From Candidatus Gallacutalibacter pullistercoris (GTDB taxonomy: Bacteria; Bacillota; Clostridia; Oscillospirales; Acutalibacteraceae), in contig DVIY01000189.1 in assembly GCA_018710915.1 (NCBI GenBank), positions 1-37,882 of the forward strand: 37,882 nt of DNA, given 5' to 3'. Both the position numbers and the translations under genes were made by a program. Of this stretch, positions 15,126-37,882 are shown piece by piece (positions within the stretch are counted from its first letter, which is position 1; every line of letters starts with the position of its first letter). Under the pieces are notes generated by a model that saw only the letters and a program-made list of their open reading frames with translations, had not been told where the DNA came from and searched no databases.

Positions 15126-15268
15126 AAAAAAGACTATCATCAAACAAAGTGCTCAAAAGTTCCATGGATGTTTGGCTAGACTAACCGGATTGTTTGATAT
15201 AGTACAGCGGCAATATGGAATCATTTGCTTGAGGGGAATTTTATCTGGAAAATTTGGAGGGAAAAGAA

Positions 15269-18061: not shown

Positions 18062-20112
18062 TGGAAAGAATGCAGAAACCGAAAACCGAACAGCTCCGCT
18101 CCCCTTATACGGTGCTGTGTACGGAATGCGGAGATAAAATGGAGCAGAAGCTGTTCCGTCTTGACCCGCTGATTAAACAGTATTTCCTTACCGCCCAATC
18201 GGCCAAAATTGCTGACAACCTGTTCAAAAAACTGACGGTCAACGCATTTTACGGACAAAAGGTCTTCTTCCCCGTTCGGCCTCTGCTCAACGATGAAAAC
18301 GAAATTGCACCCAATGCGTTGGAAGATATCACCTATGAACAGCTTCCGGAGAGGTTCAGCTGCGAAAATAATGCGATCCCCACCGAAAAGCTGAGCCCGA
18401 TTTCGCTGAATATCAGCAATATCGTCGCGCAGTTCTGCCATGGCAGCGGATTTGATGTGCGCGATATGCGCGAGATGCTCTCTCTGTATCAGAAAAAAGA
18501 AGTGATGTCCGCTCTGGAAGAGGAAGAAGCTGTTCGCTATGACCAGCTGTGCGCAAAGTTTTCCAGCCTGCCGGATGTCAGCCTGGCAGCCATGAGTGTG
18601 GCGGAGAAGCGGCAGGCGGACATCGAGACCATTTTCAGCAATATTCTGGCGCTGGCCATACAGGAAATTCCACTGATACGCGAAGGCTCTGCCAATATGT
18701 CATTTAAACAGTATTCGGTGGGCTGGCGCTATCGAGTCGAAAATTCCTGCGAGATGCCGTATTCACTGGTCGCGTGCAGCGAAGACGGCGTAGACCTTGC
18801 CTGTGACCAGTGCTGCTGCCCGCACTGCCACCATATCGTTGACTACCGGTGCGGCGCATACCGGCAGCGTGTGGTGGGAATCCTCGGCACACAGTCTACC
18901 GGAAAGACTACCTATTTGACTGCTTTGACGGATATGATCGACGGCGGGTATCTTACCTCCCTTCGTTACTCCGATTTTGCAGGCAGTTTAAAAATCATGC
19001 ATGCTTTGCCCGATGATTTGCAGTGGAAGCGCTTTATGCGGGCCGGAAGAGAAGTCACGGAGCCTGCGGAGCAGAGGGAGTCACAGGATACAGCGGCAAT
19101 TTTGCTGGAATCTTCCGGCGAACCCACACAAAGCCAGCTCATCCTCCCCAATGGCAGCGCACCGGCGGGAAGAAAGACCGCTGGAAAGAAAACAACAGCC
19201 GGCAGAAAAACCGTTGAGGCCGAAGCGAGGAACGCGCAGGATAAAGTGGGCTCCCTCTGGCTGTACCAGCACGGGTACCCGCCCATCAAGACCCACGCGG
19301 TCAAGCTGGAAGCGCCGGTACTGAATTTTCTGGTTTCCAATGAGAAAATGGGTACAGAGCCGGTAATGTATACGCTGGCAGACGTACCGGGCGAAGCGTT
19401 CGACAACGAGGAAAAAGAAGGCCTGGACAAAGAATTTGTCAATACCCAGCACCGCATTTTGCGCCAGTGCGACGCACTGTTTATGGTCATCAGCCAGCGC
19501 CAGTTCGATAAGACCACGAACCTCGAATTGCAAAAGAACCCCAACCAGGTGCTGGCATCGTATCAGGATTTCCTGCCCGAGCATCCCGTGCCCACGGTCA
19601 TCGTGATGACAGGTGCGGACGAGATTTGCGGCGGAGACCTGCGCGGCGCATTACAGGTAGCGTATGATGTGCGGGAACTGCCTGCACTGGTACAAAGCGA
19701 ATTTGAAAATGACCTGGTGCTGAACACGGAGGCCATGTACAGCCTGTCAGAGGCAGTCAAACGGTATATCAACTGGAATTTCGGTAACTTTGTCAAGAAT
19801 ATTGAAGACAGCCTTTCCAAAAAATCGTCAGACAGCAAGCCCTGTGTGGCGGCGTTCTCCGTTTCCAGCGGTACGCAGTATGCGCCGCAAAACTATACCG
19901 GTACAGATCCCGAATATGATACGCCTGTCAAGATGCAGCAGCGGTACCAGAAAGTATGCAAAGCCCGCTTCGGTGTGGAAAAGCCCATGCTGTGGCTGCT
20001 GGGCGCAGACGGGATGCTGCAATCCGGACGGGCTGCCAACGAGTACAACCGCTATGATGCGTCAGTACAAAAGGCGATTCGCAAAAAGCTGCAAGAACTG
20101 TTTTACCGTTGA
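18058..20112 (+). CDS. Zinc-binding P-loop GTPase (DO-GTPase-like)
   Basis: The 684-residue cytosolic protein has zinc-binding cysteines near the N-terminus (CTECG) and again directly before the NTPase domain (a CDQCCCPHCHH cluster). The P-loop is GTQSTGKT at 277-284. Then come DVPGE as the G3/Walker B (DxxG) motif and TVIVMTGADE, resembling a G4 loop. A basic, Ala/Thr/Lys-rich insert (near 365-395) separates P-loop and G3. Together these suggest a TRAFAC-type GTPase of the kind Aravind and colleagues called double-GTPases in prokaryotic conflict systems. That assignment is from memory of the family, not a search. ATG 18058 or 18061 may be used; both follow GGAGGG. It is flanked by its likely partner, the GAP1-like protein. 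Confidence 0.72.
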   Translation: MMERMQKPKTEQLRSPYTVLCTECGDKMEQKLFRLDPLIKQYFLTAQSAKIADNLFKKLTVNAFYGQKVFFPVRPLLNDENEIAPNALEDITYEQLPERFSCENNAIPTEKLSPISLNISNIVAQFCHGSGFDVRDMREMLSLYQKKEVMSALEEEEAVRYDQLCAKFSSLPDVSLAAMSVAEKRQADIETIFSNILALAIQEIPLIREGSANMSFKQYSVGWRYRVENSCEMPYSLVACSEDGVDLACDQCCCPHCHHIVDYRCGAYRQRVVGILGTQSTGKTTYLTALTDMIDGGYLTSLRYSDFAGSLKIMHALPDDLQWKRFMRAGREVTEPAEQRESQDTAAILLESSGEPTQSQLILPNGSAPAGRKTAGKKTTAGRKTVEAEARNAQDKVGSLWLYQHGYPPIKTHAVKLEAPVLNFLVSNEKMGTEPVMYTLADVPGEAFDNEEKEGLDKEFVNTQHRILRQCDALFMVISQRQFDKTTNLELQKNPNQVLASYQDFLPEHPVPTVIVMTGADEICGGDLRGALQVAYDVRELPALVQSEFENDLVLNTEAMYSLSEAVKRYINWNFGNFVKNIEDSLSKKSSDSKPCVAAFSVSSGTQYAPQNYTGTDPEYDTPVKMQQRYQKVCKARFGVEKPMLWLLGADGMLQSGRAANEYNRYDASVQKAIRKKLQELFYR

Positions 20113-23052: not shown

Positions 23053-24810
23053 ATGAAATTCAAAAAAACAGCTGCGCTGTTTATGGCGGTATCGATGGTG
23101 TTTACCATGGTACTGTCCGGGTGCGGCACACAGGAACAGAGCCCTTCTAAACACTTACAGGATTCAGTGATTTCCGAGCATCAGGAGATCTTTGACCAGC
23201 TGACAAAGGATTCACAGAAAGAAGAACCTGACCAATCCGGCACGATTTTCCGTATGTATTATGACAATACCGAATCCATGATGGGCTTTGTAAACCCCAT
23301 GATTCAGGAGCGGGAAAAAACATCGTTTGTGTACAGCATCGATGCTGCAATCGACGTGGCTTCAGGCATGATCAGCGCACCGGCAAACGGCATTGCCGAT
23401 GCAGTAGGATATGCGCTGGAGGCGGATTCTTCCAACATCCTGCGATGGAACAAAGTAGAAATCAACGACGAATTGCAGGGGCAGTTCTGCGCCAAGAGTT
23501 TCTATACCGGAAGCGGCGGCGGGCGGCTGGGCACCCTGACCGAAAACGGGAAGGTAATCGGCCCGCTGGGCAGGCTGTTCCAGAACGATGCGAACCCCTT
23601 TGCGGCGGACGGGCTGACCGTGATTGTCAGCGATTTGATGGAGCAGGGATTTAATCTGGATACCCTGCGCGACGGGATTCAGCAGTATTTTTCTGAAAAT
23701 GAATATGCTGCGGCAATCATTCTGGGCTGCACCAGTGAATATGTGGGGAATATGTCGGTGCCGTGCTTCAGCGGTTCTTCCGGTACGGATATCGTCACCA
23801 TCAACAACTACGACGGCCCGGCGGCATACTATTTCCTGATTGTTGGCCCGCGGAACCTGGCAGAAAGCTATGCACAGCAGCTGGAAGAGCGGCTCGATGA
23901 CAGCGATGTCGAGTTTGAGCGCGCCAGCTATTACAACAGCGCGGACATCAACAGCACCGCGGCTCCCCTGTCGTTTGAGCTGATTGACGATACCATGAAG
24001 GATGTAAAGTCGCTGGAAGGCGACGCCGCGCCCAAGCGCCGTGAGGAAGGCAGAAGAGGCGGCGATGATGACGAAGAAGATGAAGATGATAAATCCGAAG
24101 ACGGAGAACGCACCCTGGAGGATGTATGGGGCAGCGCGAACACCAATGGCGTAAGCGCAGAGGGAAATGCGTTTGCCGCCCGTGTGGGACGAAATTCCAG
24201 CCCCGTGTTCGGCAACCTCATCCAGCTCTCTGCCTTTGCTGACCAGCCCGATGATGTAGAGAGCGAAATCGTCTCCTCCACTTTGTATGTATATGACGAA
24301 GAGGCCGGCGACTGGAAAGAAGGCTCGAAAAACGAGCAGTCCGGGTATACGCTGCGCATGGATTCGCTGGAAGAGCCGGTTACAGAGATAAATGACAGCA
24401 GCAAAATGATTGTTGCCGAAGGCCGCGAGGGCGTTCTCCTGAGGTGTACGCTGGACTTTTCAGAAGGAAGCGCACTTGACCGCAGCAATACATACCGCGT
24501 AGAAGTGCAGCTGAACAATCACCGTGAAAAAGACGGCGGCGAAGGCAGCGATGACGATTTGCTGGAGATGAGCATTACGACCAGCGACTTTGATACCTCG
24601 CTGAGCGCGCTGGCCATGGACAAGCAGGATGAATATAACTGGAAGAAGAGCTCAAAAGAAGCCCGTGAAGCAGCAGCTTCGGCGCTGGTGCGTACACCCA
24701 AGCTGAACAATCTGCTCAATGCGCTTTCAAACCTTTCCTATCAGCCGGAAAAACAGCAATCACAGTATGTTGACTTTATTTTTGACGCTTCTTCTTCCGG
24801 CAGAAGATAA
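23053..24810 (+). CDS. VWA-like surface lipoprotein
   Basis: A 585-residue protein with a lipoprotein signal peptide (lipobox LSGC, Cys24). It should be lipidated and displayed outside the membrane. Near the N-terminus, MYYDNTESMMGF has the DxTxS form of a MIDAS (Asp71, Thr73, Ser75). The later LTVIVSDLMEQG strand resembles the VWA beta-strand carrying the second metal residue. I therefore read residues about 63-290 as a divergent VWA fold. An acidic low-complexity segment (GDDDEEDEDDKSEDGE, about 336-351) separates it from a beta-rich C-terminal half. It lies 12 bp after the GAP1-like gene. It may be the second extracellular recognition module of the system, but its partner is unknown. Confidence 0.7.
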   Translation: MKFKKTAALFMAVSMVFTMVLSGCGTQEQSPSKHLQDSVISEHQEIFDQLTKDSQKEEPDQSGTIFRMYYDNTESMMGFVNPMIQEREKTSFVYSIDAAIDVASGMISAPANGIADAVGYALEADSSNILRWNKVEINDELQGQFCAKSFYTGSGGGRLGTLTENGKVIGPLGRLFQNDANPFAADGLTVIVSDLMEQGFNLDTLRDGIQQYFSENEYAAAIILGCTSEYVGNMSVPCFSGSSGTDIVTINNYDGPAAYYFLIVGPRNLAESYAQQLEERLDDSDVEFERASYYNSADINSTAAPLSFELIDDTMKDVKSLEGDAAPKRREEGRRGGDDDEEDEDDKSEDGERTLEDVWGSANTNGVSAEGNAFAARVGRNSSPVFGNLIQLSAFADQPDDVESEIVSSTLYVYDEEAGDWKEGSKNEQSGYTLRMDSLEEPVTEINDSSKMIVAEGREGVLLRCTLDFSEGSALDRSNTYRVEVQLNNHREKDGGEGSDDDLLEMSITTSDFDTSLSALAMDKQDEYNWKKSSKEAREAAASALVRTPKLNNLLNALSNLSYQPEKQQSQYVDFIFDASSSGRR

Positions 24811-24857
24811 AAAAAACAAAAACAAATTGAGACGTATCATGACGGAGGGATCTCATT

Positions 24858-25337
24858 ATGGCAAACAAAGATGCAAACCTGAAGGCCGGTTGGAAAAACC
24901 TGGCGATCTGGATGCCTGCTACCATTTTGGTGGCGCTGATTATCCGCGTTGTAACGTGGAAATTCCTGGTGTATGACAATATGGATATTTCGGAAGAACA
25001 GTTCAGCATGGTTCTGGCCCTGCTGCTGGTAAGCGTCCTGTTCCCCATTATCGGATATTTCAGCATCTATATGCTTTACAGCCGGGCAGCGGCGGTCAGC
25101 TCTACCAGTTTGCGCGAAGTGGCCCGCAGCAAAAAATGGATTGCACCATTTTTGGTGTTTTGTGCACTCGAAGTGCTGTGGTGCCTGATTTCCATTTTGT
25201 TCATGCTGATTACCGGCAATGGCGGCATTTCAGTCAGCGCATATCTTACCTGCCTGCTGATTTCCATGGTAATAGATATCGTGATGGTGATCTGCGGAAG
25301 AATGTATTTCAAACCGGATCGCGTTCAGCAGGGATAA
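24858..25337 (+). CDS. Four-helix membrane protein, unknown
   Basis: A 159-residue integral membrane protein with four predicted helices (about residues 15-35, 54-79, 93-118 and 125-148) and short loops. I do not recognise a family. GGAGGG upstream supports ATG 24858. It lies between the VWA-like lipoprotein and the tubulin-like gene, all in the same direction, so it may be a membrane anchor or channel part of the same assembly. That role is inferred from position only. Confidence 0.7.
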   Translation: MANKDANLKAGWKNLAIWMPATILVALIIRVVTWKFLVYDNMDISEEQFSMVLALLLVSVLFPIIGYFSIYMLYSRAAAVSSTSLREVARSKKWIAPFLVFCALEVLWCLISILFMLITGNGGISVSAYLTCLLISMVIDIVMVICGRMYFKPDRVQQG

Positions 25338-25366
25338 ACTTACTTTGAGAAGGGAGCGGAATTTTC

Positions 25367-27211
25367 ATGGCGGATCGTTATATTATCGCAACGGGCGGCA
25401 CCGGCGCCATGTGTGCACGGGCATTCCTGTATCTTCTGGCCGCCGGATGCGGCGACACGATGGATACCTACCATATTCTGCTGGTAGATAAGGATAAGCA
25501 CAGCGATGCCGGCACAGCCTGTGAAAACCTGTTGGAAGAATACAATTCACTGCGCGCACAATTGACAGACGCTCAGTCCTTTCATATGCCGAAAGTCGAG
25601 TTGGAAAAGTGGAATTTTACCGATGCGGTCATTGATGAGTATGTTTGCCGCACCGGAAGACAGGCACAGGACTTGAGCAGCCTGAACCTGAAAAATCTGC
25701 TGAACCCCGAAAACGACAGCATGAAAGCCCTTTTGATGGATACTTTATACACCCGCGACGAGATGCAGGTGGATTTGGAAAACGGATTTTACGGCCATCC
25801 CAATGTGGGCGCAGCGGTGTTCGACTATATTCGCGATCGCTTTTTGAGCCAAAGAACCATCGACCGGGAAGGCAGCGAAAAGATCAACCAGTTTATGACA
25901 GACCTGCACAACAGCCTGCGCAGCCAGCCGACATTTGTCTATCTGTTTGGCTCACTGTTTGGCGGTACGGGCGCAAGCGTGTTCCCCAATGTGGTATCGG
26001 CGCTGCGCTCCATTCGCGGCGAGACTCCCGGCGATAACTGGGGCGAGACCCGTCTGGTGCTGGGCGGTACCATGGTGATGCCGTATTTCAGGCTCCCGGA
26101 TTGCCCCGCAGACAGCATCGAGCGTTTGGAGAGCGTGGTTCCCAATGACTCTAAATTTGCCGAGCAGACCCGTGAGGCGCTGCGTTATTACGCCGAGAGC
26201 CATCTGCTGCAGCAGATGATGAACCTGATGCTGGTGGGTACCAAGCAGCTGGATGTTACCAGCGAACTGTATGCCCGCGGCGGCGACCAGTGCCAGCACT
26301 TCCATATGGTGCTGCAAATCGCGGCGGCGACAGCTCTCCGGTTCTTCCGTGGGGAGCTGGGCGGCATGCAGAATCAGTATCCTGCCGGCCAGTCCGTAAC
26401 GCCCGCAGGAAAGCTGCTTTTGTGGAAGGTACAGCCTGATAAGGGAGGCTCGAAAAATGGGTGGAGTACCCTTACCGTCAGCGAGCTTGGGCTGGAAAAG
26501 GAGTACCGCAAGATGGACCAGTTCCTGCGCTTCTCGATGATTGTCGTGTATTATCTGCAAAATAAATTTTCGAAAGAGACCGCCAGCCTGCGGGATGAGA
26601 TCGAAGTGCTGGGCACCATGAAGCAGATGAGAGACCAGAATGGCAGCCCGCTTCAGCTGTATAAGGGGCGTATTTCCACGCAGGATATCAACACATATTA
26701 TAAAGAGCCTATCGGAAAAGCCAGCGCCTTCTGCAAGAAATTCCTCCAGTATTATTTTGATGTTGCCATGAGCGGTTATGACTGGTCGAAATATCATGAC
26801 AAACAGAGCGTTCCGGTACAAAGGGGCGGCAGCCAGACAGTTTCCTGTAAAAAATACAGTGTGCTGCCGGCTGTGAGCAGCCAGGCGATGGAAGAAACAT
26901 TCCTCAGCCGCCGCTGGGTGGATATTGTCAATCTGGCGCAACTGCACCGTATATTGGAAGTCATGCATCCCAATGAGGTGGAAAAGACCACCACGCTGAA
27001 CCAGATTATGACCTTTATGCCGCTGGATACCGAGCGCCATCTGGTACAGGAAGTCAACTTCCCGCACAATATCGGACAGATTTATGTGGACCATGTGCTC
27101 GACTCACTTGACCTTGTGCGCAAGAGATTCGGCGGGGTCAAGAATGACGGCGTGCATTTCTCGCAGATCTATGACAAGATCTATCATTACTGCGATATTG
27201 CCAACCGCTGA
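25367..27211 (+). CDS. Tubulin-like GTPase
   Basis: The 614-residue cytosolic protein begins with a nucleotide-binding strand and loop (RYIIATGGTGAMCARAF) and an HILLVDKDKHSD segment that fits the second strand of the tubulin/FtsZ fold. The tubulin signature loop GGGTGSG is matched by FGGTGAS (198-204). This combination fits the bacterial Tubulin_2-like families rather than FtsZ, because no FtsZ C-terminal tail is present. Such proteins are predicted to bind GTP and may polymerise or act as switches. AAGGGAG precedes the ATG. The next gene encodes an actin/Hsp70-like ATPase 50 bp downstream. The pair is unusual and may form one machine. Confidence 0.68.
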   Translation: MADRYIIATGGTGAMCARAFLYLLAAGCGDTMDTYHILLVDKDKHSDAGTACENLLEEYNSLRAQLTDAQSFHMPKVELEKWNFTDAVIDEYVCRTGRQAQDLSSLNLKNLLNPENDSMKALLMDTLYTRDEMQVDLENGFYGHPNVGAAVFDYIRDRFLSQRTIDREGSEKINQFMTDLHNSLRSQPTFVYLFGSLFGGTGASVFPNVVSALRSIRGETPGDNWGETRLVLGGTMVMPYFRLPDCPADSIERLESVVPNDSKFAEQTREALRYYAESHLLQQMMNLMLVGTKQLDVTSELYARGGDQCQHFHMVLQIAAATALRFFRGELGGMQNQYPAGQSVTPAGKLLLWKVQPDKGGSKNGWSTLTVSELGLEKEYRKMDQFLRFSMIVVYYLQNKFSKETASLRDEIEVLGTMKQMRDQNGSPLQLYKGRISTQDINTYYKEPIGKASAFCKKFLQYYFDVAMSGYDWSKYHDKQSVPVQRGGSQTVSCKKYSVLPAVSSQAMEETFLSRRWVDIVNLAQLHRILEVMHPNEVEKTTTLNQIMTFMPLDTERHLVQEVNFPHNIGQIYVDHVLDSLDLVRKRFGGVKNDGVHFSQIYDKIYHYCDIANR

Positions 27212-27261
27212 TGCCCCCGGGAGGGAAGAATTTTTGGGATTTCAGAAGGAGATGAAACCTG

Positions 27262-30200
27262 ATGCAAATCAGAGATCTTTTTACAGATAACCTGGTTGCC
27301 AGTACCAGACTGTCCCCCACCTTGGTGCCGGGTCTGGATACTTCGGAAAGCAAGGGCCCCATTACGGCAGCCGACGGGATTGGGCCAGCTCAGATTGCAG
27401 AAAATTTCTATCTGACAACAGAGAGTGATTCGGCCAACTCTGCCTATGCACGCCCCTCTATGCTGGCGCATGTTTCCAGCTTTGCCAGCGGCGTGCGCAC
27501 CATTGCTGAAAAATGGAATGCCGGTAAGCTGACTGGTGCGGATATGGATTCCTCCGCTTACCGTGATTTTATTGAATGGCAGGGTCTGGTCGCCATCGTG
27601 GCGCTGCATGATATCTATTCCTATAAAGGGCTGGATATCTCGGTGAAGAGCATACAGCTGAACAGCAAAGACAAGCTGCATGAGTGCATCCTGCTCTCGA
27701 TGAGCAAGGATATGGACTATAAAACCACCATTACGGTTGATGAATCGGGCATACCGCAGGGAAAACTGTTTTATGTCTGCCAGAAGGACGAACCGTTTGC
27801 CATTTTTCATCCGGTAATCGGCATCTGCCCGCTGCAAACCTACTCCAAAACCCTGTTTGACGGTGTGGTGGACTGGTTCAGCAGCCAGCAGGGTACGGTG
27901 AAAACCTGCCATGAAGCCTGGCTTCCGGTATGCAGCGGAGAGGGCCGCCTGGACGATTTCTTCCTGGCGCGCATTGCCTGGTGGGCAGAAAAGAACCGCA
28001 TGAAAGACCTGCATGAGCTTATGCAGAAAGGGATGCGCGATCCCCAAAAATACAACCCTGATTTGTATAAACGTCTGGAGGCCAGCACCCAGTGGCCGGC
28101 GGTTTCCAATATCGATGAGATTTGGCAGGATCGCGGCGCTGAATTCAGTACCGCAGTACAGGCATGGCAGAACGCCGGCTCACTTTCCAGCCTGTTTACA
28201 GACACGCTGTTTCTGGCATATGTACAGGAAAAATCGGACAGCCGTTTGACCTATAATACGCCTGACGGCGCGAAACAGCTGGATTTCAGCAATGCCGGTA
28301 CGCTGCCGGAGCTGGCCCATTTTGTTCCGGTGCTTCCCTTTACCCAGTCCGGCGCAAAGCTGCTGGAAAAGGGATGCATGCTGAAAGAAGTCAGGATTAC
28401 AGCCGTTGCAGTGCCTGGCGGCCTTTCTGGGGTGCGCGTAGAGGTGAGCATCCAGACGCCGGAAGATGAAGTCCTGCCGCTGAACCGTTTTTACAGTGCA
28501 GAAGCGCTTATCCAGGGCCCCCTGCCGTATATGATGGTGTGGCCGTGGGTATCCCTGCCTGCCAAGATGTGGAAAAAATACTATGCTACCTGGCAGAAGG
28601 GCAGCGGAGATGTCTATGACGTGCTGCAGGACGGCAGCGGCAGCGACCTGCCGCGTATGGCAGAGGTTTCGCTGGAGATGGATGGCGGTGAGCATCACCG
28701 GATCCGCCGGGCAGCCTCAAAGGATGCATGGGATGTCTATTACCGCACCGATCCGTTCCGCTATGCGGTGATGAAAAACAGCGAGGGTGCCGAGCTGGGA
28801 ACTATATTTGTCCCGCAGTGCGCGCCGCTGCAGGGAGAGCCTCTCAGCGGTACAGCTATCCCGCTTTCGGTGGACTTTGGTACGACCAGTACCGTGTGCG
28901 GCCTGAAGCTTTCAGACGGGAAAAATGTGGTTCTGCCCTATCGCGATTACAGCCGCACCATTACGGTGGAAGACCCCGACACCCGCAGGAACGTATCGCA
29001 TCATCACTGGCTGGGCACCGACCCCGGTGTGGAGCATGCGCGCAAGATTTTTAGTGTGGCGCAGCTGTTTGAGCGCGCAGATGGAAGTGCAGCCCCCAAC
29101 CTGGCGGTCATGAATGGAATCGGCAACCAGACTTACTATGTAGACGGCCGCCTGTTCCTGGTTTCCGGCGCTTTGCTGAATGTGTATGCAGGCGCACATC
29201 CCGGTGTGCTGGACCCGTTCAGCACACAGAAGATTATGAACGATATGAAGTTCACCAATAAGCTCGACCTGAAGAATGCAGCTGCCGCCGCTATCTTTTT
29301 GGCGGGTGTATACCAGTATGCGCTGCTGTATCTGCTCAGCGCCAACTACCGCCCTTCTGCGGGGAGTGAGTTTATCAAGCTGCGCGTGTCATACCCCAAT
29401 GATGTGACGCTGAACGCCTTGAAGAACACCTGGAGCAATGTGAAAGAAATTCTGGCGGGTACAGTAGACCCGGTTCTGCTGCAGCCGCTGGAAAATATTC
29501 ATTATTATACCGAGGCCCGTGCTACTACACAGTATCAGCTGCGCCCCGGCGGAGGCTATGATACGCTTTCCAACCTGATTTCGCTGGATATCGGCGGAGG
29601 TACCACTGATATTTCCATCACCAACCGTACATATCCGGGCGAAGTGCGTTCGCTCTCCGTGCGGTATGCCGGTAAGGAAATCATGATTGACAGTATTATC
29701 GAGACCTTCCGGCAGTATTCTCCGCACGCAACCTTTGAGCGTGTGAAAACCTTCCGCGATTTGTGGCAGGCGTCTGAGAAGGAATCCTCTTTGATGATTA
29801 CGGATTTCGATGAAATCTGCAAGGAATTCCAAAAGAGTTCCAGTGATGATGCGGGCCGGTATGACCTGGTCGACAGCAACTCCCTGCGTATGATTGTGGA
29901 AATGCTGCTGGCCGGCGGGATGGATCTGGGCGATCCGCACCAGCCCAACGGCACCAACTTCCTGCGCCGCCTGATTATGGCGAAATTCCTGATGCTGATG
30001 CGTCTGGTAGCCGAAACGATTCGCAATAACCTGGATATGTGGTGTATTGCCGGCCATAAAGGGCCGCTGCAGCTCAACGGAAACACGCTGTCGCTGCATC
30101 TTTCTGTGACAGGTACCGGCGCCCAGCTGCTGCAATATGTGTTCAACTGCTCCCTGGGCGATCTGGACAGCAGGGACGCCAACGCACTGCGTTACGCCCT

Positions 30201-30918
30201 TCCCCACTCCAGCGCGTGCATCGATATTTTGAACGAGCTGTTCAAGAATGTCATTGGCCCTGAAAATCTGGGCGAAAATGTCAGTGTCAATATCACCTTC
30301 CATGTCAACCATGATGTAGCCGAAAAGCTGGAGGTCTGCTATGGTATGCTGCAGCCCGGAATTGAAACGGCAGCAGCCCCCGCAGCTGCGACAGCCAAAG
30401 CAGCCGCACCGGCCAGCCCGGCAGCTCCTGCCATGGGTGCATTTTCGATTGCCACAATGATTCAGCAGGAAACCGCCAAACAGCAGCAGCCTGCACTCAC
30501 CACAACCGAACAGGAGCAGGTGGAACGTCAGAAACACAGCGACGAAGTCAAGCAGATGTTCAACCAGTATCGATTCTCGCCCAAGATGGATGAAGTGGTG
30601 GAGTATATCAAAGCGCTGTCGGTGTATATCAATGTATGGGACCGTGTGATCTTTGGCGATTCATCCGAGCTGGTAGGCACCCACTACGGCCTGGAAAAAC
30701 CGGATATGACGCTGATCTGCAAGGTGTACGACCTTCTTTCTGACCATGTGGAAGAGCTGATTCCTGCCAGCTGCCTGCGGGCAAGCGAGCGCCGCGCAGC
30801 CTATATGGCAGAGGCAGAACAGGAAGAATACCGTGACCTGCTGATTAAAACCTATGTGACCGATGACCTGTTCAACCAGAAGATGGCCAGATATCAGGCA
30901 GACCGGTCGATTCACTGA
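27262..30918 (+). CDS. Large Hsp70/actin-like ATPase
   Basis: A 1218-residue cytosolic protein. Residues 1-520 form a mixed alpha/beta region of no recognised family. An actin/Hsp70-type ATPase domain follows: phosphate-1 loop SVDFGTTST (Asp538), phosphate-2 loop LDIGGGTTDISI (Asp776) and an adenosine-like motif SVTGTGAQLL near 950. An Ala/Pro-rich linker at about 1037-1060 leads to a helical C-terminal domain. The order recalls SrfB-type virulence-associated Hsp70-like proteins, but the size and N-terminal half differ. It lacks a substrate-binding domain like DnaK's. It probably works with the tubulin-like protein encoded just upstream. The start has GGAGATGAAACCTG directly before ATG 27262. 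Confidence 0.75.
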   Translation: MQIRDLFTDNLVASTRLSPTLVPGLDTSESKGPITAADGIGPAQIAENFYLTTESDSANSAYARPSMLAHVSSFASGVRTIAEKWNAGKLTGADMDSSAYRDFIEWQGLVAIVALHDIYSYKGLDISVKSIQLNSKDKLHECILLSMSKDMDYKTTITVDESGIPQGKLFYVCQKDEPFAIFHPVIGICPLQTYSKTLFDGVVDWFSSQQGTVKTCHEAWLPVCSGEGRLDDFFLARIAWWAEKNRMKDLHELMQKGMRDPQKYNPDLYKRLEASTQWPAVSNIDEIWQDRGAEFSTAVQAWQNAGSLSSLFTDTLFLAYVQEKSDSRLTYNTPDGAKQLDFSNAGTLPELAHFVPVLPFTQSGAKLLEKGCMLKEVRITAVAVPGGLSGVRVEVSIQTPEDEVLPLNRFYSAEALIQGPLPYMMVWPWVSLPAKMWKKYYATWQKGSGDVYDVLQDGSGSDLPRMAEVSLEMDGGEHHRIRRAASKDAWDVYYRTDPFRYAVMKNSEGAELGTIFVPQCAPLQGEPLSGTAIPLSVDFGTTSTVCGLKLSDGKNVVLPYRDYSRTITVEDPDTRRNVSHHHWLGTDPGVEHARKIFSVAQLFERADGSAAPNLAVMNGIGNQTYYVDGRLFLVSGALLNVYAGAHPGVLDPFSTQKIMNDMKFTNKLDLKNAAAAAIFLAGVYQYALLYLLSANYRPSAGSEFIKLRVSYPNDVTLNALKNTWSNVKEILAGTVDPVLLQPLENIHYYTEARATTQYQLRPGGGYDTLSNLISLDIGGGTTDISITNRTYPGEVRSLSVRYAGKEIMIDSIIETFRQYSPHATFERVKTFRDLWQASEKESSLMITDFDEICKEFQKSSSDDAGRYDLVDSNSLRMIVEMLLAGGMDLGDPHQPNGTNFLRRLIMAKFLMLMRLVAETIRNNLDMWCIAGHKGPLQLNGNTLSLHLSVTGTGAQLLQYVFNCSLGDLDSRDANALRYALPHSSACIDILNELFKNVIGPENLGENVSVNITFHVNHDVAEKLEVCYGMLQPGIETAAAPAAATAKAAAPASPAAPAMGAFSIATMIQQETAKQQQPALTTTEQEQVERQKHSDEVKQMFNQYRFSPKMDEVVEYIKALSVYINVWDRVIFGDSSELVGTHYGLEKPDMTLICKVYDLLSDHVEELIPASCLRASERRAAYMAEAEQEEYRDLLIKTYVTDDLFNQKMARYQADRSIH

Positions 30919-30950
30919 TGATTTCAGAAAATCATGATGAAAAAGTTCTG

Positions 30951-30970
30951 GGCGCAGCCGCGGCTGCGCC
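30951..30970. repeat. Perfect 20-bp GC palindrome in the operon
   Basis: GGCGCAGCC-GC-GGCTGCGCC is a perfect palindrome 33 bp after the actin-like gene's stop. In RNA it would form a very stable hairpin. No T-run follows, so it is more likely an RNA-processing or stability element, or a protein site, than a terminator. Confidence 0.75.
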
Positions 30971-31017
30971 GCAGAGCCCGATGCAGCGGTAGCTGCGCGA
31001 TAAAGGAGGATCAGACC

Positions 31018-31971
31018 ATGAATCGTTGTGTTGTCTGGGCAACAAAAAAAATTGCGGTATGCCTGAGTGTCATGCTGCTGCTGGCAGCTGGCGGATGGAG
31101 CCTGCCGGTTATGGCCAAAACCAGCACAGAAGAGCAAACGCCGATGGTGCAGAAGCTTTCGGCCGAAACCGAAGGCCAGGCGGAGGCTTTGGAAAAAGAG
31201 ATTGCGCAGCTGAACGCGGATCTTTCCACAGCCAAAACCGCACTGGTTTTGGGCATTATAGGGGCATCCCTGGCTGTTCTGGCCATAGCAGGCGCGAGCG
31301 TTGCTATTTTTATGGGGATGAAGCGCCCCACAGAAAAAGAGCTGTTTGACCCCGAAAAGTTTGCAACCAGGGACGACCTGAACGCCCTGTCTCAAAATGT
31401 GGCGCAGCAGATTGACCGGGTGAAGAACGAAGAAATGCGAAATGCCCGTATAAAGGCAGAAAAGCAGACCACTCCCCCGGAAGAAAAGAGAAAATTCGTT
31501 ATACCCGACTTGCCCGAAACAGAACCCGTGAAAAAAACGGCCTGGGCAGCTTCCCCTGTTGCTGTTGAGCCGAAAGTACAGCCGGATGTTGCGGTAAAGG
31601 CTGAAGAGCCCGAAATCAAAGCGGATGCTGTGGTGGTTGGAAAGCTGAAAGCAAATTTTGAGCCGCAGATTCGCGACCGCATCTGGCTGACAGAAGGGCG
31701 CGGCTATCTGCTCTATGAAGATAATACGCTGGAGCCGGAGCAGGGCCGCGGTTCCAATACGCTCGAAAATTTCGCGCAAAACGGCCTTTTGCGTTTATTT
31801 GATGCACAGGTAAATGGGCAGACCTATACCTACCAGCAGATTATCAACGGCGAGTATCCCCGCAACCAGTACTATCAGCCTGGCGATGTGCTGAAAAAAG
31901 CAGTTGTCAAGCAGGAGAGCGGCGGAGAATACAGCCTGGTGCACCCGGGACGGATTGAAATGCGGCCGTAA
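31018..31971 (+). CDS. Membrane coiled-coil protein with cytosolic C-terminal domain
   Basis: A 317-residue protein with a signal peptide (about 1-33, ending near VMAKT). It has a short extracellular coiled coil (about 40-70), one transmembrane helix (about 75-100), a charged linker with Pro-rich stretches, and a C-terminal domain (about 220-317) of predicted beta structure beginning IRDRIWLTEGRGYLLYED. I do not recognise the family. The start at 31018 follows AAAGGAGG. In-frame upstream ATGs (from 30934) would be read across the palindrome and give no signal peptide. Its place suggests a trans-membrane connector between the outer VWA proteins and the cytosolic parts (inference). Confidence 0.7.
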   Translation: MNRCVVWATKKIAVCLSVMLLLAAGGWSLPVMAKTSTEEQTPMVQKLSAETEGQAEALEKEIAQLNADLSTAKTALVLGIIGASLAVLAIAGASVAIFMGMKRPTEKELFDPEKFATRDDLNALSQNVAQQIDRVKNEEMRNARIKAEKQTTPPEEKRKFVIPDLPETEPVKKTAWAASPVAVEPKVQPDVAVKAEEPEIKADAVVVGKLKANFEPQIRDRIWLTEGRGYLLYEDNTLEPEQGRGSNTLENFAQNGLLRLFDAQVNGQTYTYQQIINGEYPRNQYYQPGDVLKKAVVKQESGGEYSLVHPGRIEMRP

Positions 31972-32025: not shown

Positions 32026-32048
32026 TTCATATACAGGGAGGAATGACT

Positions 32049-32771
32049 ATGCCAGCAGTCAATCAAAACCGACAGTTTCAGATTATCAATGTGACAGAAC
32101 CGCATCTTCCGTGCGTGCTGATTCTCGATGTTTCCGCTTCCATGGATGGAGACCCCATCGCGTTTGTAAACCGCGCGTTGACGCGGGCTGTTGAAGTGAT
32201 TGCAGATGACTCCATTGCAAGCAGGCGGGTAGAAATATGTTTGATTACCTTTGGCAGCTCGGTAAAGGTAGAAGTACCGTTTCAGACCAGCAGCCAGTAT
32301 TCACCAAAAAAGCTGTTTGCCGGCGGGCTGAGCAGCCTGAACACAGCGCTGATTATGGCAATGGATGAAATTGAAAAGCGGATGGAAGCATACAGCAGCC
32401 TGGATGTAGCCAGCTGTACCCCGTGGATTTTCCTGCTGTCTGATGGGTATCCGAGCGATATGGAGCGCTTTGAAGAGGCCAGCGGCAGGCTTCATCAGAA
32501 AATCCGCGATAAAAAGCTGAATTTTTTCCCCATGGCAGTGGGTGGAGCAGATGTGGATTTTCTGCGCCGGTATTTTCCAGAGCAGGAAGAAGGCGCCGTG
32601 CTGAGCGGCACAATGGAGGAACTGGAAGACGTATTAGCATGGTTTGCCGGGCAGGTGTCGGAATCTTCCCACAGCGGCGTGCGCAAAAACGCAGAAATTC
32701 CGCTGTATGTACGGCGCGCACAGCGCCAGGAGGGGAAAACGGCGCAGCGGATGATTACCATCAACCTGTAG
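32049..32771 (+). CDS. TerY-like cytosolic VWA protein
   Basis: The 240-residue soluble protein is a single VWA domain. The MIDAS is intact (DVSASM near 26-31), with a later LSDGYPSD carrying the usual DG pair (about 137-144), and a hydrophobic core typical of TerY. There is no signal peptide, so it is cytosolic, unlike the other two VWA proteins of the locus. TerY proteins act with PP2C phosphatases and protein kinases in the TerY-P triads of tellurite-resistance and related systems. Here the next genes encode a pseudokinase, a NACHT-like protein and a kinase, but no PP2C is in the window. I use ATG 32049, with GGGAGG at 32036-32041; ATG 32043 is too close to that site. Confidence 0.8.
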   Translation: MPAVNQNRQFQIINVTEPHLPCVLILDVSASMDGDPIAFVNRALTRAVEVIADDSIASRRVEICLITFGSSVKVEVPFQTSSQYSPKKLFAGGLSSLNTALIMAMDEIEKRMEAYSSLDVASCTPWIFLLSDGYPSDMERFEEASGRLHQKIRDKKLNFFPMAVGGADVDFLRRYFPEQEEGAVLSGTMEELEDVLAWFAGQVSESSHSGVRKNAEIPLYVRRAQRQEGKTAQRMITINL

Positions 32772-32787: not shown

Positions 32788-33663
32788 ATGCATTCCTGTG
32801 AAAAGGTGTTTGACAGGATTGGCAAGGAATACAGGATTGGGCAGCGGGTGCACTGTCGTCCGGACGGCGGGGAGTTGTTTTCCGTACAGGAAAATCCGCA
32901 GCAGCTTGTGCTGCAAACAGCATGCAGTATTCCCGAACAGAACCGCCTTTCGTGCGATTCTTCCAGCCTGATGCAGGTACAGGTTCCGGTGTATGACCAG
33001 GACGGGCAGGCTTTCGGTTTTCTGATGCGGCTGAAACGCGAGCTGCCGAACCCGGTTTCACTGGAAGCGCGTTTGACGCAGCTGGGAGAGGAGGTTTCCA
33101 GCTCGGTTCCTGTGCGCAAACTGCTTGCGGTACAGATGTGCCGTATTTTTTCGCTGGTACATCAGGAGGGCTTTGTGTTTGGGTTTGCAGAGCCGGGCGA
33201 TTTTCTGGTATCAGGGCGCAACCGGCTGGTGTGTGCCAGCACTGACCGCTGCCTGACAAATCCCGTGGAATGGGAGAGCATGTGGTATTATTGTGCGCCC
33301 GAGGTGCTGGCTGCGGACGCAAACTGTGAATATGATTTTGCAGGCGACTGCTATACGCTGGGAATTTTGCTGTTTCAGATTCTTACCGGCAGTTATCCGT
33401 TTGGCAGAGGTCTTTTGCCAAAGGAGGAACGGATTCTGGAGGAGATTCTGGACGGGAAAAGCGTGTTTTTTTATTCTGACCGCCCCGAAAACCAATCGAT
33501 TCTTGCGCGGCTGCGGGAATACGATGCAGACGGGGAAATGGTTTCACAGACGCTGCTGAGCCTGTTTCAGAGGACATTCGACTATTCGGGAAGCAGCTCG
33601 TATCAGGAGGGACGCCCTTCACTGGCGGAATGGGCCCGCTTTATGCAGGCGGCCAAATGGTAA
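32788..33663 (+). CDS. Pseudokinase
   Basis: A 291-residue protein with the overall pattern of the protein kinase encoded at 36243-37373 but no catalytic residues. The glycine loop reads DGGELFSV, and the ATP-binding Lys position is Gln43 (LVLQ). The catalytic Asp position (family GD in YVxGDxNxxN) is Phe133 in GFVFGFAEPGDF, and the metal Asp of the DVDSF motif is Ser151. The C-lobe is retained: APEVLA, then AGDCYTLGILLFQILTG with its structural Asp, and YPFGRG. It therefore probably keeps the fold but cannot phosphorylate, and may act as an allosteric partner of the TerY-like protein or the kinase. The start at 32788 follows GAGAGGGGG. Confidence 0.75.
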   Translation: MHSCEKVFDRIGKEYRIGQRVHCRPDGGELFSVQENPQQLVLQTACSIPEQNRLSCDSSSLMQVQVPVYDQDGQAFGFLMRLKRELPNPVSLEARLTQLGEEVSSSVPVRKLLAVQMCRIFSLVHQEGFVFGFAEPGDFLVSGRNRLVCASTDRCLTNPVEWESMWYYCAPEVLAADANCEYDFAGDCYTLGILLFQILTGSYPFGRGLLPKEERILEEILDGKSVFFYSDRPENQSILARLREYDADGEMVSQTLLSLFQRTFDYSGSSSYQEGRPSLAEWARFMQAAKW

Positions 33664-33675
33664 GGAGGGAATCAT

Positions 33676-36111
33676 ATGGGGGTATCTAAAGAGCTGGTGC
33701 AGGAATCTTCCAAAGACCGGGGGTTCCAGCTTTTGTGCCGTATTTTTTCCATTTTATCTGTGCGGCAGAGCTGGAAAAACCAGTTCGCAGAAAGGGCGGT
33801 ACAGCTGAAGGGGTTTTCTACCCGCAAAAATGGCTCTACCGAAGAAAAGGCACAGGACAGCATTACCTGTGTCAATGATATTATGGACGAATGGCTGCGG
33901 TTTTCATTTCCATGCGTCCGGCAGAAAAAAGAAGTGTTTGAAAAAACACAGGAAGCGTTTTTGGAGAAGCTGCAAAGCGTAAAAATAGAAAGCAACGCCA
34001 TTCAGGAATATCAAAATGATTTGCAGGGGATTGTCGATAACTATACTTCCGACCCGCGTTATGTTACCTGGAGCGGGGATGCGTATAATCGGTGGAAGCG
34101 CAATTTCAACAGTACGCTCGGCGAAAGCCGCACCGGTTTTTCATTAAAAATGCTGGCAGGCATTTCGCTGACAGTCAGCGTGCTGGCAGGCGAAGACACC
34201 ACCTGCGGCCTGTATGCGGGCCCGCAGCAGGTATGCGAGCTGCTGTCTTTATGCATGAAAGAATTTGGGTACCGGTATACAGAGTTCCTGATGCCGTTAA
34301 AGGCAGAAAAAGCCTGTACGGACGATCAGAAAGAGCTGCTGTTGTATGCGATGTTTTTTCTGCTGAATTCATATTATGCCAATGGCGTCCAAAAGCAGCA
34401 GAATGCATGGGAGCGCGGCAAAGCATTTCTGGAAGCCCTGATTCTGGAGCGGCAGAATGGCCAGACCGAACCGGGCTCAATCTATCAGGTGCTCCAAAGG
34501 ATAGAGGAATTTAATGGCTGCTTTGAAAGGTACGAAACATCCCTGATTACATATGCGCAAACCTTTGAAGTCGGCGCGCACAGCTGCGAAGTAGAGAGCT
34601 GCTATGTGCCCCCGGTGCTGGAATATCTGGGTACCAATTCGAATGGCTTGGAAAAGCTGTTTGACGCAGAATTGCTCTCGGAGAAAAAAGGCCTTTTTCT
34701 GATTGATGACAGCGGTGATGAAACATCGCGCCAGCAAAAAGCGGTGCTGCTTTCGTGCCTGCACAGCAATGAGGCATTCTGCGCCTCCTTTCCGAACATG
34801 GCAGAATTTGCCGCCGGGCTGGGGCTTGAAAACAGCCGCCTGTATCCGGTTGTGGCCGACTGCCGCCATCTCGTTGGCATCCAGGGGATTACCCTGGAAA
34901 TACTGCTGGAAGAAGCGCTGGGGAATTCCTTCCAGTTTACAGGCAGCTACCGGGGGGAAGAAGCCTATATCTGCCAAATGAAAGAATTTTTAGAGCATGC
35001 GGCCGCACAGGGAAAGCTGCTTTTGTTCCTTGACCACTTTACGCGGAATGATTTTTCCATACTCAGTGAGCTGCTGTGGAACCTGAAACAGGAACATCGC
35101 GGCTGGAAGGTGCTTTTGTATATCACTTCACAAAAACCAGCGCCGTCACAGCTGCGAACGCTGCAAAGAGACCTGGCAATCTGGCAGATGTCAAAGCCGG
35201 AATCATACGAAGAAAAGCTGATTGAGCGATTGCGCAGATTTCTGGCAGTCGGGGTCGGCGGGGAGCTGCGGTTTGAAAAGCGGCTTCAACAGCGAAGCGG
35301 GCGCTTTGAAAGCCTGTGTACCAATACACCCGAAAGCCTGATCCGGTATTTTATCGATCCGCACCAGACAGATGCGTATTCGCTTTTGATAGAAGATATG
35401 GAAGCCCAGCTGGAGATTGACTGTTCGCGCGAACCGGGCAACCGGGACGGGGCAGTCACGCGCGATGAGTGCCGAAGCCTGCTGCGGAAAATTGCCGTGC
35501 ATGTGGTGGAGCACCGTTTTACAGATGCAGCAGGGCGTTTTACAGATGTTTTTTCGGAATCGACTTTGCGCCGCAGCGGGATTCTGCTGGATGATATACA
35601 CCGGAGGGCGTGGGAAATTATCTGCCGGCGTATGCTGCTGATTTCCCCGCAAAATATCAATGCATTTTCTTTTCAGCATCCGCTGTTCTGTTACCATCTG
35701 GCAGCCGAAGAATACTTCGAGCTGTTCCGGTATGACCAGAGCCGGTTTTTCCATCGGCTTGGCCATATCAGCGCAGAAGATTTTTCGTATCTGCTGGTAA
35801 TTCTGGTGCGTTTTCTGAGCCGGGCATACCGGCCGGAATATGTGGAAGAAAAAAATGCATTGACTCCCGCAGATATCCTGGTTTTTGCACAGTTTGTATC
35901 GGGATATGTCTTCAGCCATCTGAGTGAAACCCGGTTTCAGGATGCCCAGTGTTATGCAGAGGGGCTTTCTGATGTGATTCATGAAACGCTGGGCAAAAAC
36001 CTCTTCAGTTCTGATAACCCCATGATACAGATGGGCAGGTATGCGCTGTATGTGGCGTGTGAATATGCGAGCCGGTATTATTCCTACTATGCGTCTGAAA
36101 GTGGTGTATAA
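33676..36111 (+). CDS. Large cytosolic protein with degenerate NACHT-like core
   Basis: An 811-residue protein of unknown family. Residues about 1-330 are helical. At 339-351, GLFLIDDSGDETS occupies the place of a STAND/NACHT P-loop (a strand, then a glycine-containing loop before a helix), but the GK(S/T) is replaced by ETS. A NACHT-like middle follows (VADCRHLVGIQGITLEILLEEAL). KLLLFLDHF (447-455) looks like a Walker B strand with Asp453. The final 350 residues are helical and may form a sensor solenoid. If right, it is a STAND-like scaffold that cannot hydrolyse ATP in the usual way. AAGGAGGG precedes the ATG, 12 bp after the pseudokinase stop. Confidence 0.5.
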   Translation: MGVSKELVQESSKDRGFQLLCRIFSILSVRQSWKNQFAERAVQLKGFSTRKNGSTEEKAQDSITCVNDIMDEWLRFSFPCVRQKKEVFEKTQEAFLEKLQSVKIESNAIQEYQNDLQGIVDNYTSDPRYVTWSGDAYNRWKRNFNSTLGESRTGFSLKMLAGISLTVSVLAGEDTTCGLYAGPQQVCELLSLCMKEFGYRYTEFLMPLKAEKACTDDQKELLLYAMFFLLNSYYANGVQKQQNAWERGKAFLEALILERQNGQTEPGSIYQVLQRIEEFNGCFERYETSLITYAQTFEVGAHSCEVESCYVPPVLEYLGTNSNGLEKLFDAELLSEKKGLFLIDDSGDETSRQQKAVLLSCLHSNEAFCASFPNMAEFAAGLGLENSRLYPVVADCRHLVGIQGITLEILLEEALGNSFQFTGSYRGEEAYICQMKEFLEHAAAQGKLLLFLDHFTRNDFSILSELLWNLKQEHRGWKVLLYITSQKPAPSQLRTLQRDLAIWQMSKPESYEEKLIERLRRFLAVGVGGELRFEKRLQQRSGRFESLCTNTPESLIRYFIDPHQTDAYSLLIEDMEAQLEIDCSREPGNRDGAVTRDECRSLLRKIAVHVVEHRFTDAAGRFTDVFSESTLRRSGILLDDIHRRAWEIICRRMLLISPQNINAFSFQHPLFCYHLAAEEYFELFRYDQSRFFHRLGHISAEDFSYLLVILVRFLSRAYRPEYVEEKNALTPADILVFAQFVSGYVFSHLSETRFQDAQCYAEGLSDVIHETLGKNLFSSDNPMIQMGRYALYVACEYASRYYSYYASESGV

Positions 36112-36242: not shown

Positions 36243-37373
36243 ATGACATGTATGGGTATCAGCGGAAAAACCTATCAGCTGGGAGAAAAAATCCAGGATG
36301 GCGGCGAAGGGACCGTATATCATATTCAGAAGGACCAGAATCTGGTGGCGAAAATCTATCACAATACGACCTCGCCCGACAAAATGCAGCGTCTCGAAAA
36401 GAAGCTGCGGGTGATGGTAAAGGATACATCCTTTGAGGCCTGGCAGGACGGCGCCATGCGTTTTGCCTGGCCGCAGGATGTCCTGTATGAAAACGGCAAA
36501 TTCTGTGGGTTTGTCATGCCGTTTGCAAAAGATACTTTTGCGTTTCACGAAATCTTGTGGGACAGCGGCCGCGACAAATTCAAGCATTATGATTACAACC
36601 GGTCAATCGCCATTGCCTATAACCTGACACAGGCGGTGGATTATGTGCACACGCATGGCTATGTAATCGGCGATATGAATATCAAAAACTTCCGGTTCAG
36701 CCGTGACTGCCGTGTGATTGTACTGGATGTGGATTCGTTTGACATCACCGACCCCGCTACCGGCGAGCATTATAAATGCAGCGTAGGGCACCCCGAAATG
36801 CTGGCGCCCGAATTGCAGGGCATGCGGCTGGATACCGAGCGGGCCAAGTTTACCAAAGAAACGGATTATTTCTCGCTGGCAATCCTGATTTTCCGAATCC
36901 TGATGAACGGCGCGCACCCGTTTAACGCGCCCAAAATCGAAAGCGCCGATGATTACGATTCCTCTTCCAGCGACAACGGCACCATGACCGATATCGCCAA
37001 AGGCAAGTGCCCGTATGTGAGTGTGGACACGGGACGCAAAATCCCCATTTATGCGCCCGATTTTGCCATGCTTCCGGCATCGCTGCAAACGCTTTTCTGC
37101 CGTACCTTCCGCTATACCGAAGCGACGGCGCGAAAAGCTGCCGCTGGCCGCGCAAGCACGATGGAGTTTGCCGTGGCATTGTACCGCTTTTACCAGCGCG
37201 ACAAAGTGACCTGCAGCGCAGACCCAAGGCACAAGTACCTTTCCCGTGTGGGCAAGTGCCCGTTCTGCGAAGTGAAGGCAAAACAGAACTCCGTTGCACA
37301 GGCGTCTATCAGCCGCGCTGCGGCGCCGCATCGTTCATCCCTGTTTGACCAGCTCAAATTTAAATTTCTGTAA
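36243..37373 (+). CDS. YegI/COG4248-like protein kinase with zinc-knuckle tail
   Basis: The 376-residue cytosolic kinase has a glycine loop GGEGTVY (20-26), ATP-binding Lys37 (VAKIY), the catalytic Asp144 in VIGDMNIKNF and the metal-binding Asp162 in LDVDSF. It also has the C-lobe segments HPEMLAPEL and TDYFSLAILIFRILMNG. The atypical GDxNxxN and DxDSF motifs place it with the COG4248 kinases (E. coli YegI type) that accompany TerY-like VWA proteins. A short tail with CSADPRHKY...CPFC is a probable zinc knuckle. Unlike the pseudokinase at 32788, all catalytic residues are present. It has its own promoter upstream and a strong terminator, so it can be expressed separately from the long operon. 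GGAGGAATTTCA precedes ATG 36243. Confidence 0.85.
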   Translation: MTCMGISGKTYQLGEKIQDGGEGTVYHIQKDQNLVAKIYHNTTSPDKMQRLEKKLRVMVKDTSFEAWQDGAMRFAWPQDVLYENGKFCGFVMPFAKDTFAFHEILWDSGRDKFKHYDYNRSIAIAYNLTQAVDYVHTHGYVIGDMNIKNFRFSRDCRVIVLDVDSFDITDPATGEHYKCSVGHPEMLAPELQGMRLDTERAKFTKETDYFSLAILIFRILMNGAHPFNAPKIESADDYDSSSSDNGTMTDIAKGKCPYVSVDTGRKIPIYAPDFAMLPASLQTLFCRTFRYTEATARKAAAGRASTMEFAVALYRFYQRDKVTCSADPRHKYLSRVGKCPFCEVKAKQNSVAQASISRAAAPHRSSLFDQLKFKFL

Positions 37374-37418: not shown

Positions 37419-37430
37419 TCAGGAACAAAC

Positions 37431-37508
37431 AGGAACTTTGCAGAAAAGGGGCTTTTTGCGGCGTGTACTTTGTCAATACAAAAAGATATGATATAGACAA
37501 GCAAAACG
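37431..37508 (+). promoter_or_regulatory. Duplicated promoter module, copy 1
   Basis: The 78-bp module contains ACTTTG at 37435-37440 and again at 37467-37472, 32 bp apart. A -10 TATGAT lies at 37487-37492 and a block TATAGACAAGC follows. The -35 (TGTACT) is poor. Conserved blocks shared with copy 2 (37752-37829) fall on these elements while the spacers differ. It reads into the small gene at 37558. Confidence 0.6.
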
Positions 37509-37557
37509 CCAGACAGAAAGCCTGGTGAAGCAATCCTCAAGTAAGGGAAGTGAGAGA

Positions 37558-37749: not shown

Positions 37750-37751
37750 AA

Positions 37752-37829
37752 AGGAACTTTGCAGAAAAAGGAAGAATACGGCAATGTACTTTGCACAGCC
37801 GCAGGAATACAATATAGACAAGCCAAACG
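37752..37829 (+). promoter_or_regulatory. Duplicated promoter module, copy 2
   Basis: ACTTTG at 37756-37761 and 37788-37793 are again exactly 32 bp apart. A -10 TACAAT (37808-37813) and TATAGACAAGC occupy the same offsets as in copy 1. Any gene it drives starts outside the window. The final 53 bases hold no start codon I would accept. Confidence 0.6.
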
Positions 37830-37882
37830 GAAAGCCGCCGATTCAAAAACGGCCCCGATAAACGAAAAACAACCATCTGTTA

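Follow-up and report, generated by a model that had tools for sequence, protein, structure and literature searches.

A predicted pseudokinase of the YegI/COG4248 group in a VWA-kinase operon of Candidatus Gallacutalibacter pullistercoris

The window, i.e. the whole stretch of 37,882 nucleotides that was analyzed, constitutes one entire contig of the 2.35-Mb assembly of Candidatus Gallacutalibacter pullistercoris, which comprises 269 contigs. From position 15254 onward it carries an operon with the order VWA, DO-GTPase2, a 962-aa protein, lipoprotein-like, TM, tubulin-like, actin-like, TM, VWA, predicted pseudokinase, an 811-aa protein and kinase. Its principal features are:

15254..18061, + strand: large VWA protein, 935 aa (Pfam VWA, 3.6e-12), whose gene shares 4 bp with the GTPase gene
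18058..20112, + strand: DO-GTPase2, 684 aa (Pfam PF19993, 5.9e-12)
23053..24810, + strand: probable lipoprotein, 585 aa (from gene order; no family match above cut-off)
25367..27211, + strand: tubulin/FtsZ-like protein, 614 aa (Pfam Tubulin_2, weak match, 0.011)
27262..30918, + strand: actin-like protein, 1218 aa (actin/Hsp70-type nucleotide-binding motifs VDFGTTST and DIGGGTTDIS)
30934..31971, + strand: membrane protein following the actin-like gene, 345 aa (no family match above cut-off)
32043..32771, + strand: stand-alone VWA protein (VWA242), 242 aa (Pfam VWA, 5.7e-9)
32788..33663, + strand: predicted pseudokinase (P0001), 291 aa (sub-cut-off Pfam match, YegI-like profile, AlphaFold2/Foldseek)
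33676..36111, + strand: P0003, 811 aa (STAND-like P-loop NTPase pattern, by eye only)
36243..37373, + strand: YegI/COG4248-like kinase (P0002), 376 aa (Pfam PF00069, 2.2e-8, above cut-off)

The central portion of this operon has counterparts elsewhere, which were found by baiting with the tubulin-like and actin-like proteins. Homologs of the former occur in the loci L020/L025, L026, L040 and L042, with the motif FGGTGAS invariant in the first three, and homologs of the latter in L018, L020/L025, L026 and L042; the 1218-aa protein additionally matches the NCBIfam BeeR model over residues 718-825 (2.3e-6), far below the cut-off. The order lipoprotein-TM-tubulin-actin-TM recurs in L020/L025 (an Oscillospiraceae MAG), where the stretch ends soon after the actin-like gene, and, within the stretches covered, in L040/L041 and L042/L043, while L026 (a Gemmiger MAG) shows the related order tubulin-actin-TM-GTPase. 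L020 and L040 encode, upstream of their tubulin genes, a protein of 550-620 aa to which the 585-aa product is equivalent in position, and the 345-aa membrane protein has its positional equivalents in TM proteins of L020 and L042. No kinase-like gene was seen near the tubulin and actin genes in the stretches of L026, L040/L041 and L042/L043 covered, and for this reason the VWA-pseudokinase-P0003-kinase stretch of the window looks like an added cassette. Tubulin-like matches were recovered in 3 of the 391 class genomes, the window's own included; the gene set 23053-31971 recurs across different families of the class yet is rare.

The P0001 gene opens with ATG and continues for 291 codons in a single frame with no internal stop. 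It is preceded by a purine-rich sequence resembling a ribosome site (GAGAGGGGG) and is separated by 16 bp from its upstream and by 12 bp from its downstream neighbor. Its synonymous codon score of 0.199 in frame, as against -0.144 and -0.282 in the shifted frames, falls within the range of the scores of its operon neighbors. P0001 is a real, intact and normally coded gene inside the operon, and its product is a stand-alone domain in which no membrane segment was seen.

The Pfam protein kinase profile (PF00069) matches P0001 only in the C-lobe, at residues 167-219, with an E-value of 3.8e-6 and a score of 26.9 bits that falls below the curated cut-off of 31.7 bits. A profile built in the present analysis from nine YegI-like kinases matches residues 65-286 with 66.8 bits, which places P0001 by sequence kinship in the YegI/COG4248 group. 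At an E-value of at most 1, a phmmer search of the PDB recovered 419 different sequences, the best 60 of which are protein kinases or kinase-like proteins, headed by the MLKL pseudokinase (1.9e-6). The AlphaFold2 model (pLDDT 71, pTM 0.78, from a six-sequence alignment) displays the bilobal kinase fold, as a prediction rather than a solved structure, and a Foldseek comparison of this model with the PDB has protein kinases throughout its best 50 matches (best E 3e-8, TM about 0.55). Because its alignment contained kinases, the model is supportive yet falls short of fully independent proof. P0001 is accordingly described here as a protein with a predicted protein-kinase fold.

Comparison with P0002 reveals the extent to which the active site has been altered. 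P0002 has the catalytic residues K37, D144, N149 and D162 and a zinc-ribbon-like C-terminal tail with a CPFC motif. BLASTP aligns the two proteins over nearly their full length (E 1e-11, 24%), and both this pairwise alignment and a MAFFT alignment with other kinases set Q43 of P0001 against K37, F133 against D144, D138 against the catalytic-loop N149 and S151 against D162. The nine-kinase profile puts the Asp-to-Phe and Asp-to-Ser changes at the same sites, P0001 and P0002 share an HRD-DFG spacing of 18, and the catalytic and metal loops of P0001 can be aligned gap-free with those of P0004, a kinase encoded on contig C92 of the same genome, pairing HQSGIVLGDVNPRNFLV with HQEGFVFGFAEPGDFLV and DVDSC with STDRC. 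The Lys-to-Gln change rests on the pairwise and MAFFT alignments and on the predicted strand 40-44, the N-lobe lying outside the profile match; residues 14-82 contain no Lys in whatever register, so that no realignment of the N-lobe can restore the catalytic Lys. The glycine loop GGEGTVY is represented by a broken GGELFS, and helix C is essentially missing from the model, in which the strand at 40-44 is followed by that at 64-69, with only a 3-residue helical turn within the 20 residues separating strands 3 and 4. Between the DFG position and APE the activation segment falls 7 residues short of that of P0002, and the CPFC tail common to P0002 and P0004 is missing. The APE motif (170-172), the F-helix Asp187 and the Arg of the final helix (RPSLAEW), which are residues that hold the kinase C-lobe together, are all retained.

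The catalytic stretch of P0001 contains only two Asp residues, D138 and D153. The former was rejected as the catalytic Asp as it occupies the Asn position, anchored by VHxxG. The latter is aligned with the DFG Asp in one PKG alignment; this register needs a 2-residue insertion and breaks a hydrophobic strand, making it possible but less likely, and even then the Lys and the HRD Asp remain lost. Where active YegI/COG4248 kinases have the catalytic Lys, the catalytic Asp and the metal-binding Asp, P0001 has Q43, F133 and S151, and all three motifs whose loss marks bacterial pseudokinases (VAIK, HRD and DFG) are affected. Judged from its sequence, P0001 is a true pseudokinase with an apparently dismantled ATP/Mg site, and the loss exceeds the three replacements (Lys37 to Gln, Asp144 to Phe, Asp162 to Ser) of the preliminary description, which were borne out by BLASTP and MAFFT and, for the two Asp positions, by the profile. 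The survival of the APE and F-helix motifs and the intactness of the frame, likewise claimed there, hold as well. The same description took the open frame to indicate that the loss is probably functional rather than decay; the frame, codon usage and close spacing do argue against decay at the sequence level, but the claim is weaker than stated because no orthologue for a test of selection was found.

P0002, two genes downstream, is an intact kinase and a paralogue of P0001 in the broad sense, as had been proposed, but a nearer relative is encoded elsewhere in the genome: P0001 is closer to the PP2C-linked P0004 (65.1 bits; 30% and 3e-13 in a search of its own genome) than to P0002 (50.4 bits). 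P0002 and P0004 share 33% identity over 349 aa, the CPFC tail included. In a 14-row tree P0001 groups with P0002, P0004 and two kinases from viral contigs (support 83/87), a placement made unsure by its very long branch of 2.16 changes per column. Given this branch and the greater closeness of P0004, an origin of P0001 as a duplicate of P0002 is not established. No orthologue of P0001 was recovered from its own genome, all 5 genomes of the genus, partly overlapping samples of 300 family, 391 class and 115 phylum genomes, genome and viral contigs (with exact peptide seeds), or the plasmids and phages searched; these searches returned distant kinases or kinase-like domains only, and the arrangement is so far confined to one genome. 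Two phylum matches (L052 and L053) were rejected as orthologues, being very long proteins in which LGN replaces HRD; these very long open frames represent further kinase-like domains with an altered catalytic loop.

The YegI/COG4248 kinases that occur with VWA and PP2C proteins in the TerY-P triad belong to the same sequence group as P0001 and P0002, and VWA242, which retains the MIDAS DxSxS motif (LDVSAS), has relatives among the VWA proteins of such triads, including those adjoining YegI-like kinases in L023, L008, L031 and L032. These sets would correspond to the E. coli kinase, VWA and PP2C proteins named YegI, YegL and PphC. One such set, in a genome of the family (L023), comprises a YegI-like kinase at 15420, a VWA protein at 16857 and a PP2C protein at 17638, and a kinase accompanies PP2C also in the C92 copy of the own genome and in L034; the kinases of all three sets are intact, unlike P0001. 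The latter further departs from the YegI-type triads in lacking the CPFC tail, and its contig set of VWA, pseudokinase, P0003 and kinase is free of PP2C up to the contig end, 509 bp past P0002. Two PP2C genes were found in the genome, on contigs C92 and C269, and a PP2C gene could also lie past the contig end at 37882.

The remaining member of the set, P0003, displays by eye a degraded Walker A (FLIDDSGDETS), a Walker-B-like LLLFLDHF and a sensor-1-like LLYITSQ. No convincing family match was obtained in Pfam, NCBIfam or PADLOC, and no homolog in 394 genomes of the order; the antibody matches returned by its search were taken as chance, and the model of a fragment (pLDDT 41) was too poor to use. 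With its Walker A reduced to SGDETS and without homologs, P0003 is a possible pseudo-NTPase adjoining the pseudokinase.

Parallels to these features have been reported. O'Boyle et al. 2025 (PMC12599244) review the bacterial pseudokinase families, several of which have lost all three motifs, and consider pseudokinases "relatively common" among prokaryotes. In ActPs1-3, GLW, CP1 and EssB/YukC of that review, the VAIK Lys, HRD Asp and DFG Asp are replaced and the fold is predicted to be kept, as in P0001, which differs from them in its stand-alone, apparently membrane-free form and in that no conserved family of its own was found. According to Kaur et al. 2020 (PMC7159879), most kinase domains of their vWA-MoxR (VMAP) systems have disrupted catalytic residues; these inactive kinase domains resemble P0001 in belonging to a multi-gene vWA system, but are described there as mostly actinobacterial and PASTA/propeller-related, whereas P0001 is YegI-like and lies beside a DO-GTPase/tubulin system. 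The earlier view that bacterial VWA systems offer few descriptions of kinase/pseudokinase pairs is, in the light of this study and the families in PMC12599244, not quite right. Kaur et al. also describe DO-GTPase systems with tubulin, HSP70 and vWA, to which actinobacteria add kinase-PP2C-vWA sets, and Makarova and Koonin 2010 (PMC2875224) report vWA, kinases and GTPases from tubulin-like operons. These GAP1-N2 DO-GTPase systems and FtsZl1 operons, as there presented, combine DO-GTPase2, tubulin-like, vWA and membrane proteins and a kinase in one operon, as does the window, in which the DO-GTPase is present by its PF19993 match and no GAP1 domain was matched among the operon proteins. The very large actin-like protein sets the window apart from them, and the pseudokinase and the 811-aa protein are absent from the descriptions in the passages covered.

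A second pseudokinase is encoded in the same genome at G000:C68:6665-7180 (L046, frame from 1141). It combines zinc-ribbon, kinase-like and PASTA-like regions, the last a tail recognized by eye, with HRD changed to HLG (HLGI), the VAIK Lys to Arg, and DFY at the DFG position; a similar protein with HLGI and TEW occurs in another genome of the family (P0007, L005), where PASTA is matched by Pfam. Given this second protein and the three studies, P0001 is real but of a known kind, while its arrangement in a VWA operon is unusual. Bacterial pseudokinases are common in genomes and few have a known role; because the operon of P0001 also encodes a VWA protein and a kinase that is plausible as its active partner, a simple biochemical test is possible, although the gain would be modest given that inactive kinases are already on record from vWA systems and that a single genome is involved so far.

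We lean, at slightly better than even odds, toward a role for P0001 as a scaffold or allosteric partner, with no catalysis of its own, within a VWA-kinase module lacking the usual PP2C. The kinase fold would have been retained as a binding surface after the ATP/Mg site was dismantled, and P0001 would join the VWA protein, P0003 and/or the active P0002 in a signaling module attached to the membrane-near DO-GTPase/tubulin/actin-like system, where it may modulate P0002 and may occupy the position that the PP2C phosphatase has in the usual triad. We infer such partner binding, as a guess, from gene order. The retention of C-lobe structural residues alongside loss of the ATP site and the MLKL match count in favor, and EssB/YukC offers a precedent for a bacterial pseudokinase scaffold (PMC12599244); the lack of an orthologue in the samples searched and the related tubulin/actin operons without P0001 count against. 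It is unlikely that P0001 is instead a structural component of the tubulin/actin-like apparatus with no regulation of P0002: it does belong to the operon, and kinases are often present in FtsZl1 operons (PMC2875224), but the related operons of L026, L040/L041 and L042 have no kinase-like gene in the stretches covered. A decaying gene, drifting and stop-free by chance, would be consistent with the very long branch, the strongly eroded N-lobe and the lack of orthologues in the genomes sampled; the 291 open codons, normal synonymous choice, tight spacing and ribosome-site-like sequences, and the loss of catalytic but not C-lobe structural residues, render this quite unlikely.

The STAND-like pattern of P0003 with its degraded Walker A, as seen by eye, raises the further alternative that P0001 is a decoy or pseudo-substrate mimicking a kinase that an invader modifies or binds, with P0003 or P0002 as the sensor. 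DO-GTPase systems are predicted conflict systems (PMC7159879), and a plant pseudokinase-NLR pair, ZED1/ZAR1, exists (PMC6634424), but P0003 is assigned by motif and its model was unusable, so that we hold this to be very unlikely. Least probable by a good measure is another catalytic activity on the kinase fold, like the AMPylation of SelO or the glutamylation of SidJ: such precedents exist among proteins with altered kinase motifs, but according to PMC12599244 SidJ turns the Lys and Asp that bind ATP and metal to a new use, and SelO has an entry with a Lys and DYG, whereas P0001 lacks this Lys, helix C and, in the better register, the DFG Asp, and has a broken glycine loop. A broader and very improbable reading would make the stretch a guard-and-decoy or allosteric signaling cassette, with P0001 as a dead kinase of the YegI type that replaces PP2C and works with P0002, the VWA protein and the STAND-like P0003 in controlling the tubulin/actin/DO-GTPase apparatus.

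Beyond the P0002 gene, the segments 37420-37530 and 37750-37850 share the phrases ggaactttgcagaaaa, gtactttg and atatagacaagc, and resemble a diverged direct repeat or a repeated promoter region.
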